Shown here piece by piece: positions 3,582-59,794 of a DNA stretch of 64,000 bases. The stretch spans positions 1,473,501 through 1,537,500 of the forward strand of contig NZ_CP041409.1 of assembly GCF_007065885.1 (NCBI RefSeq), in the 5' to 3' direction. The stretch's first letter is position 1. Every line of letters begins with the position of its first letter. Source of the DNA: Altererythrobacter sp. TH136. Its GTDB lineage: Bacteria > Pseudomonadota > Alphaproteobacteria > Sphingomonadales > Sphingomonadaceae. The notes beneath the pieces were generated by a model. The model worked only from the letters and a program-made list of their open reading frames with translations. It was not told the origin of the DNA and did no database searches. Position numbers and translations under genes: made by a program.

Positions 3582-3690
3582 ATCGCGCCCCCGTCATCTG
3601 GGGAGTAGCCCGAAGGACATCGCCCGCGGTGTCCGCCCCGCCGTCAACATACTTGACCGAGAGGTCATGGCGGCAGGGGGATTGCGACGG
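3582..3690 (+). promoter_or_regulatory. yybP-ykoY manganese riboswitch
   Basis: The leader of the GDT1-family gene contains the hallmark GGGGAGTAGC at 3600-3609 and a second conserved block GTCAACATACTTG at 3643-3655. Both are signatures of the yybP-ykoY Mn2+ aptamer. A closing stem can be drawn between TCGC/CCCCC (3583-3592) and GGGGG/GCGA (3676-3687), with a small internal loop. An upstream CGGGGG (3568-3573) can pair instead with CCCCCG at 3588-3593, which could be a competing fold or a terminator of the preceding gene. This riboswitch class is known to control UPF0016/GDT1 manganese exporters, matching the gene downstream. Confidence 0.85.
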
Positions 3691-3809
3691 CGGCCACGGC
3701 CGCCCTTGCGCGATCCAGGCAAGACCAATGGCATTGCGCCCCCGCCAAGCCGGGCGGGTGGGCCGCGGTGCCGTTGCTTGTCTCACCCGCCCGGCACCGG
3801 AACACGACA

Positions 3810-4376
3810 GTGCTGGAACCCCTGCTCACCTCCACTGCTCTGGTCGCGCTCGCCGAGATCGGCGACAAGACCATGCTGCTAGCGATCGTGCTCGCCACCC
3901 GCTTCCGCCGCCCTTTGCCGATCATCGCCGGCATCTTCGTGGCGACCCTTCTCAACCATGCTCTCGCCGCCTGGGCCGGCAGCCTGGCGGCGGACTTCTT
4001 TGCGGGGCAGACGTTCCGCATCATCGTGGCGCTCAGCTTCGTCGCGATGGGCCTGTGGACCCTTGTGCCTGACAAGTTCGAAGAGGGCGATGCGCCGGCG
4101 GTCTCCGCGCGCGGTGCGTTCTTCACCACGCTGGTCGCCTTTTTCCTGGTCGAAATGGGGGACAAGACCCAGCTCGCCACGGTTGCCCTGGGCGCCCAAT
4201 ATCACGACGTGCTGGCAGTCGCGGCTGGAACCACGATCGGCATGATGATCGCCAACGTGCCGGCCGTGCTGCTCGGCAATGCGCTGATCAGGCGCGTGTC
4301 GCTGAATGCCGTGCGCATCGCGGCTGCCGCCCTGTTCGTGGGCGTCGGTATATGGATGCTGGTCGATGCGCTCTAG
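3810..4376 (+). CDS. GDT1/TMEM165 (UPF0016) family Mn2+ exporter
   Basis: An inner-membrane cation exporter of about 188 residues. It has the two family signatures, EIGDKT (residues 16-21) and EMGDKT (115-120), each in a hydrophobic segment, with about six membrane helices arranged as two homologous halves. Members such as Vibrio MneA export manganese. The GTG at 3810 is chosen because family proteins begin close to the first EIGDKT motif. The alternative GTG at 3768 would add 14 residues inside the riboswitch expression platform. The upstream Mn2+ riboswitch supports a role in manganese efflux. Confidence 0.85.
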   Translation: MLEPLLTSTALVALAEIGDKTMLLAIVLATRFRRPLPIIAGIFVATLLNHALAAWAGSLAADFFAGQTFRIIVALSFVAMGLWTLVPDKFEEGDAPAVSARGAFFTTLVAFFLVEMGDKTQLATVALGAQYHDVLAVAAGTTIGMMIANVPAVLLGNALIRRVSLNAVRIAAAALFVGVGIWMLVDAL

Positions 4377-54532: not shown

Positions 54533-55957
54533 ATGAAACAGGCAGTTCTGACGGCGGTGGCGGTATCGCTGCTGGCAAGTCCGGCAGCGGCACAAGTCGC
54601 CACCGGCACGATGGGTCCGCTGCGCCCGGATCAGCAGAAGTTCTTCGAGCTTTACAAGGAACTGGTGGAGACCAACACCGTGGTCGGCGAAGGCAGCTGC
54701 ACCCAGGCTGCCGCACAGATCGCCACCCGCCTGAAAGCCGCCGGCTTCACCGACGATCAGCTAATCTCGTTTTCCGTGCCCGAGCACCCGCAGGACGGCG
54801 GGCTGGTGGCGATCCTGCCCGGCACGTCGGCGACCCTGAAGCCGATGCTGCTGCTCGCCCACATCGACGTGGTGGCGGCCAAGCGCGCCGACTGGGAACG
54901 CGACCCGTTCAAACTGGTGAAAGAGAACGGCTACTATTACGCCCGCGGCATCATCGACGACAAGTTTCAGTCCGCGGTATGGGCCGACACGCTGATCCGG
55001 ATGAAGGAGGCGGGCACCAGGCCGGCCCGCACGATCAAGCTCGCGCTGACCTGCGGCGAGGAGACCGACACCGCGTTCAACGGGGCGCAGTACCTTGCAA
55101 CTGAAAGGCGCGAACTGATCGATGCCGCCTTCGCCCTCAACGAAGCTGGCGGTGGGCGGACCGACGGCAAGGGCAAGGTATTGGTGCAGACCATCCAGGT
55201 CGGTGAGAAGGTGTACCAGGATTACAAGCTGACCGCGACCAACCCGGGCGGCCACAGCTCGGCTCCGCCCCCGGACAATGCGATCTACGATATGGCGCGG
55301 GCGCTCGACAAGATTTCAGCGCACGAGTTTCCGGCAGAGTTCAATGACACTACCCGGGTGTTCTTTGCCAAGGCAGGCGCGCTGCGCCAGGATGACATCG
55401 GCAAGGCGATGGTCGCGCTGACCAAGGACCTTAACGACGCGTCCGCCATGGGAATCGTCAACCGGGACAAGTCGCTTCATTCGATGCTGCGGACTACGTG
55501 CGTGGCCACCATGATCGACGGCGGACACGCGCTTAACGCCCTGCCCCAGCGGGTCGAAGCGAACGTCAACTGCCGTATCTTCCCCGGCCACACTCCGGCT
55601 GAGATCAAGGACAAACTGGCAGCGGTGATCGGCAATCCCGGCATTGCCATCGCGTACGGCCGAGATGACAAGCCGCTCGCCAAGAGCCCACCGCTCGACC
55701 CCGCGCTGATCGGGCCGATGGAGCAGCTCGCCGCCAAGCACTTCCCCGGCGTCCCGGTGATTCCCACGATGTCGACCGGCGCGACCGACGGGGTCTACAC
55801 CGGCGGAGCGGGCATCCCGACCTATGGCGTGCCCAGCATCTGGACCGATCCTGACGGCAATGGCACGCACGGCCTCAACGAACGGGTCGAGGTGAAGGCG
55901 GTCTACACCGCGCGCGATTATCTGTTCGACCTGGTGAAGGCGCTGGCAAGCAAGTGA
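54533..55957 (+). CDS. Exported M20 family peptidase
   Basis: A 474-residue zinc aminopeptidase-like hydrolase with a signal peptide ending SPAAAQ. Metal and catalytic segments: LLLAHIDVV (H and D), RGIIDDK, and TCGEETDTAFNG, with GGHSSAPPPDNAIY in the dimerisation lid region and GATDGVYTGGAGIPTYG near the C terminus. The substrate is unknown, probably peptides or acylated amino acids in the periplasm. AGGGGAG precedes ATG 54533; its stop overlaps the next gene as GTGA. Confidence 0.88.
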   Translation: MKQAVLTAVAVSLLASPAAAQVATGTMGPLRPDQQKFFELYKELVETNTVVGEGSCTQAAAQIATRLKAAGFTDDQLISFSVPEHPQDGGLVAILPGTSATLKPMLLLAHIDVVAAKRADWERDPFKLVKENGYYYARGIIDDKFQSAVWADTLIRMKEAGTRPARTIKLALTCGEETDTAFNGAQYLATERRELIDAAFALNEAGGGRTDGKGKVLVQTIQVGEKVYQDYKLTATNPGGHSSAPPPDNAIYDMARALDKISAHEFPAEFNDTTRVFFAKAGALRQDDIGKAMVALTKDLNDASAMGIVNRDKSLHSMLRTTCVATMIDGGHALNALPQRVEANVNCRIFPGHTPAEIKDKLAAVIGNPGIAIAYGRDDKPLAKSPPLDPALIGPMEQLAAKHFPGVPVIPTMSTGATDGVYTGGAGIPTYGVPSIWTDPDGNGTHGLNERVEVKAVYTARDYLFDLVKALASK

Positions 55958-57516
55958 CCGAGAATGACATCGCCGCCCGACTGAGCGAACCGTTCGGCTC
56001 GTTCCCGCAGGTCATCGCCGATTGGGCGGCGGTCCAACCGGACCAGATCGCCCTGCGCGACGAGCAGGGAGAGCTGACCTGGCACGCGCTTAACGAGAAA
56101 ATCGAACGGATTGCCACCAAGCTCCAGGCGAGTGGGCTGGAACGCGGCCAGTCGGTGGCGATCCTCGGCACCTCGACGATTCCCTACGCGCTGGCGTTCC
56201 TGGGCGCGGTGCGCGCGGGCGGCGTGGCGGCGCCGCTCACCACCAGCGCCAGCGCGGATCAGCTCAAGGGCATGGCGGCGGACAGCGGCGCACGGCACCT
56301 GTTCATCGACCGCGCCAAGCTGACCGAGCTGGGCGCCGTTTTCATGCCGGATCTCGAGCATATCGTGCTGGACGAGGAGCTGGATGCCTGGATGGCACCT
56401 GCCGGAACGCGGGCGGAGCCGTTCGCGCCGACTGAAAGCGACCCGTTCAACATCATCTATTCCAGCGGCACCACCGGCATCCCCAAGGGGATCGTCCATT
56501 CGCACCAGATGCGTTGGCGGCAATTCACCGGCACCGCACAGGCGTTCCGCTCCGGCGGGCAACAGGTCATCAGCCTTGCGTCGACCCCCCTCTATTCGAA
56601 CACCACGATGATCGCGTTCCTGCCCCCGCTGCTGGCGGGCGGCACGGTGCGGATCATGGGCAAGTTCGACACGAAGCGCTGGCTCGCCCACGCGCAGGCG
56701 GACCGGACCAACGTCACCATGCTGGTGCCGGTCCAGTACCAGCGGCTGATGGACGAGCCGAGCTTCGACACCTTCGACTTGTCCAGCCTGGTCGCGAAAT
56801 ACTGCACCTCTGCCCCGTTCTCGGCCGAATTGAAGCGCGAGGTGCTGCGGCGGATGCCGGGCAGCCTAATCGAAATCTATTCGATGACCGAAGGCGGCGT
56901 CGTCTGCCTGCTGCAGGCGCACGAATTTCCCGACAAGCTCCATACCGTGGGCCGCCCCGCTCCGGGAAGCGAGTTGAAGGTGCTGGACGACGAAGATCGG
57001 CCCGTGTTGCCGGGCACGCCGGGCAACCTCGTCGGGCGATCGGGAACGATGATGTCGGGCTACAAGAACCAGCCCGGCAAGACGCGGGAAGGCTACTGGA
57101 CCGATCCGGACACCGGCGAGACCTGGCAGCGGATGGGCGACATCGGCCGCATCGATCAGGATGGCTTCGTCGAACTGGTCGGGCGCGCCAAGGACATGAT
57201 CATCTCGGGCGGGTTCAATATCTTCCCCAGCGATCTGGAGGCGGCGCTCGAGACCGATCCGCGCGTGCAGGAGGCCGCGGTGGTGGGGATGGAGAGCCGC
57301 CGCTGGGGTGAAACGCCGGTGGGCTTTGTGCGACTGGTGCCGGGCACGCCGGCGGAAGCAGTGCAGTCGATCATGGCCGAAACCAACGGCAAGCTGGGCA
57401 AGACCCAGCGGCTCGCGGCCCTGCTACCGATCGACGAGATGCCCCGCAGCCACATCGGCAAGTTGCTGAAAACCGAACTACGGACGCGCGCGGCGGCGGA
57501 ACTGACGATCGACTGA
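55954..57516 (+). CDS. Class I adenylate-forming acyl-CoA ligase
   Basis: A 520-residue acid-CoA ligase. P-loop IIYSSGTTGIPKG near residue 168, YSMTEGG as A5 motif, MGDIGRIDQDGFVELVGRAKDMIISGGFNIFPSDLE (A7-A8), and a C-terminal PRSHIGKLLKTEL with the catalytic Lys. The substrate is not predictable. It starts at GTG 55954, overlapping the M20 peptidase stop, and is followed by a terminator 10 bp after its stop. Confidence 0.9.
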   Translation: MTENDIAARLSEPFGSFPQVIADWAAVQPDQIALRDEQGELTWHALNEKIERIATKLQASGLERGQSVAILGTSTIPYALAFLGAVRAGGVAAPLTTSASADQLKGMAADSGARHLFIDRAKLTELGAVFMPDLEHIVLDEELDAWMAPAGTRAEPFAPTESDPFNIIYSSGTTGIPKGIVHSHQMRWRQFTGTAQAFRSGGQQVISLASTPLYSNTTMIAFLPPLLAGGTVRIMGKFDTKRWLAHAQADRTNVTMLVPVQYQRLMDEPSFDTFDLSSLVAKYCTSAPFSAELKREVLRRMPGSLIEIYSMTEGGVVCLLQAHEFPDKLHTVGRPAPGSELKVLDDEDRPVLPGTPGNLVGRSGTMMSGYKNQPGKTREGYWTDPDTGETWQRMGDIGRIDQDGFVELVGRAKDMIISGGFNIFPSDLEAALETDPRVQEAAVVGMESRRWGETPVGFVRLVPGTPAEAVQSIMAETNGKLGKTQRLAALLPIDEMPRSHIGKLLKTELRTRAAAELTID

Positions 57517-57526
57517 CCGCCAACGC

Positions 57527-57555
57527 AAAAGGCCCGAGGATACCCCGGGCCTTTG
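57527..57555. terminator. Bidirectional intrinsic terminator
   Basis: Stem AAAGGCCCG (57528-57536) with CGGGCCTTT (57546-57554) around a 9-base loop. It closes the acyl-CoA ligase transcript on the plus strand and the 26-codon gene on the minus strand, where the U-tract follows the stem. Confidence 0.85.
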
Positions 57556-57576
57556 TCTTCAAACGAAGATGGGCGT

Positions 57577-57657
57577 TCAGACGATCGTGGCGGTAAGCGT
57601 CAGACCGCTGATGGTCGCCGCGGCGAAGAACGCCAGAATGTGCGATGCAAAGCGCAT
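57577..57657 (-). CDS. Small hydrophobic peptide, 26 residues
   Basis: A 26-codon open frame begins MRFASHILAFFAAA and ends TLTATIV. It is strongly hydrophobic and could form one membrane helix or a leader peptide. AGGGA sits 9 bases before its ATG, a promoter-like module (57736-57800) lies 80 bp upstream, and the terminator at 57527-57555 begins 20 bp after its stop, giving a complete transcription unit of about 200 bases. Homologues are not known to me; whether the peptide or the RNA matters is open. Confidence 0.5.
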   Translation of the reverse strand: MRFASHILAFFAAATISGLTLTATIV

Positions 57658-57735
57658 GGTTGCATGTCCCTGTTGAGTGTTTGATCGCCGGCGCACCGCA
57701 GCTCAAACCGCTGCCGATGCCCTGCGCTGCCGGCG

Positions 57736-57800
57736 AAATAATATTTCGCAGCGCTTTCCACAAATGAGAAGAACGCGGCAACTGTTGCGTTCCGCGCAAC
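57736..57800 (-). promoter_or_regulatory. Promoter/operator module A
   Basis: Read leftward: palindrome GTTGCG-N5-CGCAAC (57784-57800), then 20 bp, then TTGTGG (57763-57758) as -35 and TTATTT (57741-57736) as a weak -10 with a 16-bp spacer, leading to the 26-codon gene. The same layout with identical spacing occurs at 58060-58124, with 47 of 65 bases identical and no gaps. Confidence 0.5.
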
Positions 57801-57845
57801 TGGCTCGTGACCCGGGCGCAACGCACGCGCCACGCCGCCCAGGCT

Positions 57846-57875
57846 TTGCGTGAATGCGCACTGCGGCTGTATAAT
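57846..57875 (+). promoter_or_regulatory. Sigma-70 type promoter candidate, rightward
   Basis: TTGCGT (57846-57851), an 18-bp spacer, and a perfect TATAAT (57870-57875). Transcription would start near 57882 and run towards guaA through a long GC-rich leader of about 320 bases. Confidence 0.4.
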
Positions 57876-57880
57876 CGAAG

Positions 57881-57929
57881 CAGAAGAAAACGGAGCGGCG
57901 GCGACGGGGAGAGAGAGGCCGCCGCTCCG
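57881..57929 (-). terminator. Strong intrinsic terminator, leftward
   Basis: A perfect 12-bp GC stem CGGAGCGGCGGC (57891-57902) with GCCGCCGCTCCG (57918-57929), loop of 15 bases, followed on the minus strand by TTTTCTTCTG (57890-57881). It has no U-tract on the plus strand, so it terminates a leftward transcript. Confidence 0.75.
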
Positions 57930-58052
57930 TATCTAATCGCGGGCCGCCACTGGGTGGGCGGGGGCGAAGCGCGCCTCCAGGATCCGGGAGAGGAATCGTG
58001 GGACGCTGGCCGGGTGCGCCGCTAGGGGGAGAGGACTGGCGGACCCGGTTCG
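57881..58052 (-). ncRNA. Candidate small RNA with three CCUCUCCC-type motifs
   Basis: The interval from the predicted start below module B (near 58052) to the terminator gives a leftward RNA of about 170 bases with no convincing open frame. On that strand CCTCTCCCCC (58034-58025), CCTCTCCC (57993-57986) and CCTCTCTCTCCCC (57918-57906) are pyrimidine-rich motifs, one in the terminator loop. Such anti-Shine-Dalgarno loops are typical of several alphaproteobacterial regulatory RNAs. No expression evidence can be given from sequence alone. Confidence 0.35.
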
Positions 58053-58059
58053 CGGCCGG

Positions 58060-58124
58060 AAATAATGTTACGTTCGGCTTTTCACAAATGAGTAAACTGC
58101 GTGAGGTGTTGCGTCTTGCGCAAC
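58060..58124 (-). promoter_or_regulatory. Promoter/operator module B
   Basis: Read leftward: palindrome GTTGCG-N5-CGCAAC (58108-58124), 20 bp, TTGTGA (58087-58082) and TTATTT (58065-58060) with a 16-bp spacer, the same geometry as module A. It would drive the candidate RNA ending at 57881. The module is also in the leader of guaA, so a rightward role cannot be excluded. Confidence 0.5.
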
Positions 58125-58204: not shown

Positions 58205-59794
58205 ATGAAATCAGACCCCCGTCCCGATTCCGCCCTGCCCGATTCCATCCTGATCGTCGATTTCGGCAGTCAGGTGACCCAGCTTATCGCCCGGCGGGTT
58301 CGCGAAGCGGGAGTCTATTCGGAAATCGCTCCGTTCACGACAGCTGAGGAGGCTTTCCACCGGCTCCAACCCAAGGGGATCATCCTGTCCGGCTCTCCCG
58401 CCGGGGTGCCCGAAGAAGGCAGTCCGCGCGCGCCGCAGATCGTCTTCGACAGCGGCCTGCCGATCCTGGGCATCTGCTATGGCCAGCAGGTCATGACGCA
58501 CCAGCTTGGCGGCGAGGTACGGCCCGGGCACGAGACAGGTGAAGGCGGGGAGTTCGGCCGCGCGTTCCTCACCGTTACCAGGCCCTGCGCCCTGTTCGAC
58601 GGCCTCTGGAGCGAAGGCGAGCGCCATCAGGTGTGGATGAGCCACGGCGACAAGGTCACGCGCTTTGCCGAAGGGTTCGAGATCGTTGCCACCAGCGACG
58701 GTGCGCCCTTCGCCGTGATCGCCGATGAACTCCGCAAGTACTACGGCACCCAGTTCCATCCCGAAGTGGTCCACACGCCCGACGGCGGCAAGCTGATCGC
58801 CAATTTCGTGCGCCACGTCTGCGGCCTGGCCGGGGACTGGACGATGGCCGAGTTCCGCAAGACCAAGATCGCAGAAATTCGTGCCCAGGTCGGCAGCGGC
58901 AAGGTCATCTGCGGTCTGTCGGGCGGGGTCGACAGCGCAGTCGCGGCGGTGCTGATCCACGAGGCGATCGGTGAACAGCTCACCTGCGTGTTCGTCGATC
59001 ATGGACTGATGCGGCTGAACGAGGCGGAGCAGGTGGTCACCCTGTTCCGCGACCATTACAACATCCCGTTGGTCCACGTGAATGCCGAGGAGATGTTCCT
59101 TTCCGGCCTCGCCGGCGAAACCGACCCGGAGAAGAAGCGCAAGTTCATCGGCAAGGCGTTCATCGACCTGTTCGAGGCCGAGGCCAAGGCGATCGGCGGG
59201 GCCGATTTCCTTGCCCAAGGCACGCTCTATCCCGATGTCATCGAGAGCGTGAGCTTCACCGGCGGCCCTTCGGTCACCATCAAAAGCCATCACAACGTCG
59301 GCGGCCTGCCGGAACGGATGAACATGGCGCTGGTCGAGCCCTTGCGCGAACTGTTCAAGGACGAGGTGCGCGAACTGGGGCGGGAGCTCGGCCTGCCCGA
59401 GGTGTTCGTCGGCCGTCACCCGTTCCCGGGCCCCGGCCTCGCCATCCGCATCCCCGGAGAGGTCACGAAAGAGCGGTGCGACATCCTGCGCAAGGCCGAT
59501 GCCGTCTACCTCGAGGAAATCCGCGCCGCCGGTCTGTACGATGCGATCTGGCAGGCGTTCGCGGTGCTGCTGCCGGTGCGCACGGTCGGGGTCATGGGCG
59601 ATTATCGCACATACGATCACGTGCTGGCCCTGCGCGCGGTGACCAGCACCGACGGGATGACCGCCGACATCTATCCGTTCGATGCCGCGTTCCTCAGCCG
59701 CGTGGCGACGCGGATCGTCAACGAGGTGAAGGGCGTCAACCGGGTGGTGTACGATTACACCAGCAAGCCCCCCGGCACGATTGAGTGGGAATAA
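58205..59794 (+). CDS. guaA: GMP synthase (glutamine-hydrolysing)
   Basis: A 529-residue enzyme converting XMP to GMP. The class I glutamine amidotransferase domain has [20 protein letters not shown], nucleophile Cys91 in GICYGQQ, and FHPEV. The ATP pyrophosphatase domain has [12 protein letters not shown] near residue 237. The C terminus is [19 protein letters not shown]. The ATG at 58205 gives the normal length but lacks a clear ribosome site; the frame stays open upstream to a GTG at 57998. Confidence 0.97.

Follow-up and report, generated by a model that had tools for sequence, protein, structure and literature searches.

In Rhizobiales, the LysR-type regulator LsrB/VtlR activates AbcR1, NfeR1 and VrsA as well as small ORFs (PMC7486931; PMC8844928; PMC10746234; papers are cited here and below for the passages concerned), so that LysR control of anti-Shine-Dalgarno RNAs is already known from this system. 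LysR sites take the form T-N11-A (PMC8844928; PMC10746234), and LsrB itself is called unique to Rhizobiales in the text cited (PMC11975290). Another group, aR8/SuhB/MmgR (RF00519), includes SuhB, which is 61 nt long in Sphingopyxis granuli, has a role in catabolite repression and is present at a level that follows the growth rate; in the sections cited, the review of SuhB names no regulator of its promoter (PMC6563040). In Sinorhizobium, mmgR is repressed by PhaR/AniA (PMC12542648), and the promoters of the Caulobacter aR8 RNAs SisA-D are described in the passage cited as having no common motif (PMC12559287). A further likeness to the locus described here is found in ar14/NfeR1 and CcsR, which have several hairpins with C-rich anti-Shine-Dalgarno loops (for NfeR1, PMC10746234). 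In this study, we analysed a duplicated intergenic module from a sphingomonad, in which the operator and the RNAs differ from those of LsrB/VtlR and the candidate regulator appears to do so. Our literature search returned no paper with this operator, none describing this regulon and no description of the C-rich RNA or of the small-peptide family considered below.

The window, that is, the whole stretch of 64 000 nucleotides analysed, contains two blocks (57736-57800 and 58060-58124) which a preliminary description had read as a duplicated promoter/operator module. The ungapped pair is identical at 47 of 65 positions, as stated there; against 60 mononucleotide shuffles of the 2.4 kb neighbourhood, the best ungapped match of the first block was 33/65 and the mean was 29. 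AAATAAT and CACAAATGAG are likewise shared by both blocks with identical spacing, and the palindrome GTTGCG-N5-CGCAAC is perfect at 57784-57800 and 58108-58124, with no other exact copy in the window. The 2.6-Mb genome holds three exact palindromes and no copy of the reversed control pattern. Read leftward, each block consists of GTTGCG-N5-CGCAAC, 15 nt, CTCATTTGTG and the AT-rich ATTATTTC. On the minus strand of the right-hand block, the putative operator is the palindrome GTTGCGCAAGACGCAAC, of the form T-N11-A (58108-58124; centre 58116, about -64 from the predicted start); it is followed by the -35 element TTGTGA (58082-58087), within the conserved CTCATTTGTG (58083-58092), and, with a 17-nt spacer to TATTTC, by the -10 region ATTATTTC (58059-58066), which places the start at about 58052 by homology. 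The left-hand block has, on the same strand, a putative operator in the form of the perfect palindrome GTTGCGCGGAACGCAAC (57784-57800; centre 57792), the -35 element TTGTGG (57758-57763), within CTCATTTGTG (57759-57768), and the -10 region ATTATTTC (57735-57742), with a predicted start at about 57728.

These elements agree with the leftward TTGTGR-like -35 proposed in the preliminary description, and the starts that it gave (57730 and 58052) fall within 2 nt of those predicted from homology to SuhB (57728 and 58052). The downstream hairpins to which it referred are also real, at 57890-57930 and 57528-57554, each followed leftward by a short T-rich tract. A simple promoter and terminator scan of both blocks returned zero promoters and zero terminators; the loop of the first hairpin (57890-57930), at 15 nt, is larger than the scan allows. 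Both blocks lie outside plausible coding sequence, as had been claimed, when the start of GuaA is taken as 58205; the mechanical ORF extends upstream of this position, and the best matches of relatives begin at residues 2-13 of GuaA. The divergent neighbour at 58205-59794 (+) is presumably guaA (GMP synthase), and the convergent neighbour at 55954-57516 (+) is an AMP-binding, acyl-CoA synthetase-like gene (PF00501).

The right-hand promoter element probably drives a C-rich RNA of about 170 nt, termed RNA A, with a predicted extent of 57880-58052 (-). Its own fold (186 nt; -81.6 kcal/mol, z -2.9) comprises four hairpins, the loops of which contain CCUCUCCCCC, CUCUCCC and CUCUCUCCCC, and its terminator-like hairpin (57890-57930, -) has a perfect 13-bp stem followed by TTTTCTTCT. 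Folding of the RNA A sequences from all 11 genus genomes gave several hairpins with C-rich stretches in the loops in every case. In the consensus of the 11-sequence genus alignment, 94.8% of the cells are paired and nine pairs are changed on both sides, each value being reached by 0 of 500 shuffles, for a structure derived from the same alignment on which the covariation was counted; when the structure was slid by 1-3 columns, at most 58% were paired. The comparison establishes three helices, in which covariation was counted, among them helix 3, the terminator-like hairpin, with 99.3% of its cells paired; the alignment at the second hairpin was too poor for counting. Further pair types showed no excess over the shuffles (194/500 reach it). 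RNA A is not a member of aR8/SuhB/MmgR, with no match to RF00519 at the gathering score or at E values up to 10, and a permissive Rfam search of the window at this place gave sub-threshold matches only (CcsR1, 12.6 bits against 65.3; ar14, none among the matches listed). RNA A differs from ar14/NfeR1 and CcsR in its CUCUCCC-type loops and in the absence of the exact CCUCCUCCC.

Behind the left-hand promoter element, a tiny peptide gene is probably transcribed as a small mRNA of about 200 nt (transcript B; 57525-57728, -), which is predicted from the promoter, an ORF and a hairpin. The ORF (57577-57657, -) encodes 26 hydrophobic residues, MRFASHILAFFAAATISGLTLTATIV, and has AGGGA upstream; the terminator-like hairpin (57528-57554, -) is common to transcript B and the rightward acyl-CoA synthetase-like gene. 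The sequence of the ORF suggests a membrane peptide, and no match to it was found in Pfam or NCBIfam. A search with an amino-acid motif behind the set of 123 module sites described below yielded 15 ORFs; the majority are clearly related to the 26-residue ORF, and at least one (L042) appears to be a chance match. Among pairs that are at least 50% identical, the differences by codon position number 184/104/296, a pattern that suits a translated sequence, although selection by protein motif and identity itself favours third-position changes. In other genera, the C-rich hairpin sequence and a relative of the ORF stand behind one promoter (L036, L100, L117 and L144). A second promoter copy is present in six of the 11 genus genomes, for each of which about 3 kb was read, and has a decayed left arm in one; four of these six have an ORF that matches the motif. 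Because of the single-promoter arrangement elsewhere, the tandem blocks of the window look as though one ancestral transcript had been divided when its promoter was duplicated.

The third exact palindrome of the genome, at 1995875, stands 20 bp before TTGCAC, with a further 17 bp to CATATC, and faces an RNA that does belong to aR8/SuhB/MmgR (RF00519; score 47.6 bits, cut-off 41). Rfam score served to sample the SuhB genes of the family: matches were present in 103 of 119 genomes (among the matches listed), and the 30 best-scoring loci were kept. TTGC-N7-GCAA, with at least seven of its eight letters, occurs at an offset of 70-72 from the GCC of the RNA in 27 of these 30 loci (all but L215, L223 and L226) and with all eight letters in 18, compared with 14 matches altogether at 396 other offsets. 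At offsets 60-90 of 30 aR8 loci from the class outside the family, drawn from a search of 142 class genomes (among the matches listed) of which none belongs to the family, the count was 0/30. This contrast makes the module look like a promoter feature of the family rather than of aR8 as such, on a comparison of this family with aR8 loci from elsewhere in the class. If the start of SuhB is placed at its GCC, as its length of 61 nt suggests, the centre of the palindrome falls at about -64; the palindrome GTTGC-N7-GCAAC fits a T-N11-A dyad. Near -36, the SuhB promoters carry TTTTCGCAC-TTGCG, which is near-palindromic and overlaps the -35 element, at the place where the window blocks have CTCATTTGTG. 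The occurrence of one promoter motif before an aR8 RNA and another RNA differs from what is described for SisA-D in Caulobacter.

PhaR-like cores of the form YGCRNYGCR were seen at one place over the -10 region in eight of the 30 SuhB promoters, 19 nt before the SuhB core (L208, L211-L214, L221, L227 and L232), in agreement with the repression of Sinorhizobium mmgR by PhaR/AniA. Similar cores were noted by eye in some of the regions upstream of LysR genes (L312, L315 and L321). At L298 and L303, both from class genomes, aR8 promoters have TTCGCAATTGCGA or TTCGCAGTTGCG near -35 and no upstream palindrome at the usual place; the -35 element may have preceded the operator in evolution.

We infer the genus of the window's genome to be Tsuneonella, which NCBI places in Erythrobacteraceae; by 'family' in our counts we understand what we take to be Sphingomonadaceae in the wide GTDB sense. 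The module is present in 11/11 genus genomes, the present one included, and, at up to three mismatches, in 144 of 397 family genomes against 21 for the reversed control (among the matches listed). In an exact scan of the contig collection, 17 stretches were returned, and every one came from an organism bearing a sphingomonad name. From 119 genomes, 70 guaA neighbourhoods were picked blind to the motif, the most similar GuaA proteins first, which does not make an even sample; half of them (35/70) exceed a weight-matrix score of 10, against 0/70 when reversed, and 22 of 57 do so when the 13 neighbourhoods whose best window trained the matrix are left out. Since half of the 70 neighbourhoods are without the module, the guaA copy is not family-wide. 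The site set comprises 123 sites after the removal of L041, L047, L061 and L098 as chance matches, and 106 of these were used to build the matrix; a GuaA protein cluster is found at 44 of their loci and an acyl-CoA synthetase cluster at 31. The preliminary description had proposed two coregulated transcripts and a search of relatives for the palindrome and its spacing; the genus and family counts, together with the fixed position before SuhB, bear out this conservation, and the comparison supports the two blocks as leftward coregulated promoters.

Genes for small exported proteins follow some of the other module sites. One of these proteins may resemble UrcA but had no match in Pfam. At L132, L134, L139, L147 and L150 the module stands before small exported-looking ORFs, the -10 region being overlain by sequences similar to TGCAGTGCACAA, and joint control of these five loci by the module regulator and PhaR is possible. 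At L146 and L151 the ORF that it precedes is also tiny and hydrophobic but reads MTYMANRLISAVFAVSIS... and differs in sequence from the peptide linked to guaA.

LysR genes are often divergent from their target, with a T-N11-A site near -65. The present genome has four LysR-type genes (PF03466), one OxyR-like, two GcvA-like and one other, all below curated cut-offs; no exact site lies near any of the four, so that no autoregulatory site of this kind was found for them. The likely candidate for an activator of the module is one of the GcvA-like proteins (293 residues; G000:C1:721697-722575 = L063:1219-2100), for which the best NCBIfam model is GcvA (170 bits, below the cut-off of 288) and the best PDB chain is 8y6u_H, named glycine cleavage system transcriptional activator. 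Among 40 hand-chosen family genomes, most of which carry the site, orthologues with 48-88% identity are present in 38 of the 39 others (39/40 with the present one); among 68 genomes searched outside the family, the best identity was 35%. In at least nine of the 40 genomes, suhB is divergent from the candidate gene with the palindrome between them, at an offset of 71-72 and with 7-8 of its eight letters. Eight of these pairs were found by comparing coordinates and the ninth (G123) by reading its neighbourhood. In the other nine of the 18 neighbourhoods fetched, including that of the genus genome G002, suhB was not found beside the candidate; because the 18 were picked partly for known suhB adjacency, the fraction to quote is 9/40, adjacency in the remaining genomes of the 40 having been judged by comparing the listed gene places. 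Among deep orthologues, the DNA-binding domain is only modestly conserved (61-67%, versus 46-58% for the effector domain), which is not decisive.

We propose the following mechanism. The 17-bp palindrome GTTGCR-N5-YGCAAC, which has its centre some 64 bp before the start, is probably the binding site of the GcvA-like LysR-type protein; from there the protein, responding to a presumed signal, would assist RNA polymerase at the weak -35 and -10 elements. Each block would then be a leftward, activator-dependent promoter, the right-hand one giving the multi-hairpin RNA A and the left-hand one the small mRNA for the 26-residue hydrophobic peptide, and the C-rich anti-Shine-Dalgarno loops of SuhB and RNA A may block ribosome-binding sites and so silence mRNAs. 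As the same LysR regulator would drive all three, SuhB, RNA A and transcript B would constitute one regulon. We regard this explanation, with LysR-activated promoters for RNA A, transcript B and SuhB, as probable on the sequence comparisons given. A wider reading, on which we are evenly divided, is that this family, the only one in which the LysR protein has so far been seen, uses it as the master activator of a regulon that extends through the whole family. The members would be anti-Shine-Dalgarno RNAs and tiny peptides, either exported or in the membrane (SuhB, the RNA and peptide linked to guaA, and small exported proteins), and the regulon would have arisen independently of LsrB/VtlR in Rhizobiales; in Tsuneonella, duplication of the promoter would have divided what was ancestrally a single transcript for RNA and peptide.

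The identity of the binding protein is where a competing account has most room. The promoters may be real and coregulated and yet be bound by another protein, whether OxyR, a different LysR-type regulator or an activator of another class, with the adjacency of the LysR gene and suhB otherwise caused; we hold this to be rather unlikely, although it draws on several observations. The genome has four LysR genes, and the candidate lies far from all three sites. Another LysR gene, L065, is as widespread as the candidate, so that co-occurrence does not single the latter out. One genome (G141) has the site and lacks both genes at an E value of 1e-20, for which an assembly gap is a possible reason, as at least 12 genomes have the two on a single contig, separated by about 30-80 kb. 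Given their PhaR-like cores, some SuhB promoters may also be under other regulators. The family-wide search covered two LysR genes, however, of which only the candidate is divergent from suhB with the site between (L065 is near no suhB among the matches listed), and the outside genomes searched contain no close relative of it. PhaR itself was ruled out as the binder of the palindrome, since its core YGCRNYGCR has one central base and not seven (PMC12542648). An NtrC site was excluded by the spacing TGC-N7-GCA, against TGC-N11-GCA (PMC10746234). The spacing likewise excludes an FNR-type site: the palindrome has N5 at its centre. FNR boxes have four central bases.

The palindrome lies 81-97 bp upstream of guaA in the window and between the LysR gene and suhB in nine genomes, and could in principle serve repression or autoregulation of the divergent gene instead of leftward activation. 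This is improbable, as the distance to SuhB is fixed (27/30 at an offset of 70-72) while the gene on the other side varies, and the left-hand block does not adjoin guaA. That the two similar blocks are only a chance or mobile duplication, an intergenic repeat with no regulatory role, is suggested by their tandem position but scarcely credible given the presence of the module in every genus genome, its one place before SuhB despite diverged spacers and the lack of reversed guaA loci scoring above 10; a mobile repeat in particular does not agree with the conserved position.

The proposed LysR-activated regulon resembles that of LsrB/VtlR in combining LysR-type activation of anti-Shine-Dalgarno small RNAs with small ORFs, and TGCR-N6-GCAA, found here at about -70 to -57, is similar to the site of NfeR1, TGCA-N6-GCAT, which lies at -72 to -60 (PMC10746234; PMC8844928; PMC7486931). 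It appears to differ in its LysR candidate, which is GcvA-like by best family model, and it differs in its RNAs and in an operator that is not identical: read by eye, the consensus TGCR-N6-GCAA does not agree with the LsrB operators GCAT-N3-TG-N3-T and TGCA-N6-GCAT. GcvA-type regulators are the nearest described proteins by best model, yet the candidate scores below their cut-off. For SuhB, these results supply a candidate regulator together with a putative operator and a predicted transcription start, and they connect it with the C-rich RNA and the family of small peptides. Within Alphaproteobacteria, anti-Shine-Dalgarno RNAs may have come under LysR control on more than one occasion, as the comparison with Rhizobiales suggests.

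Elsewhere in the window, a manganese riboswitch of the yybP-ykoY type was identified at 3587-3716 (+), with a score of 45.8 bits (cut-off 45); it directly precedes the ORF at 3768-4376, which resembles an Mn/Ca exporter of the UPF0016/TMEM165 type.
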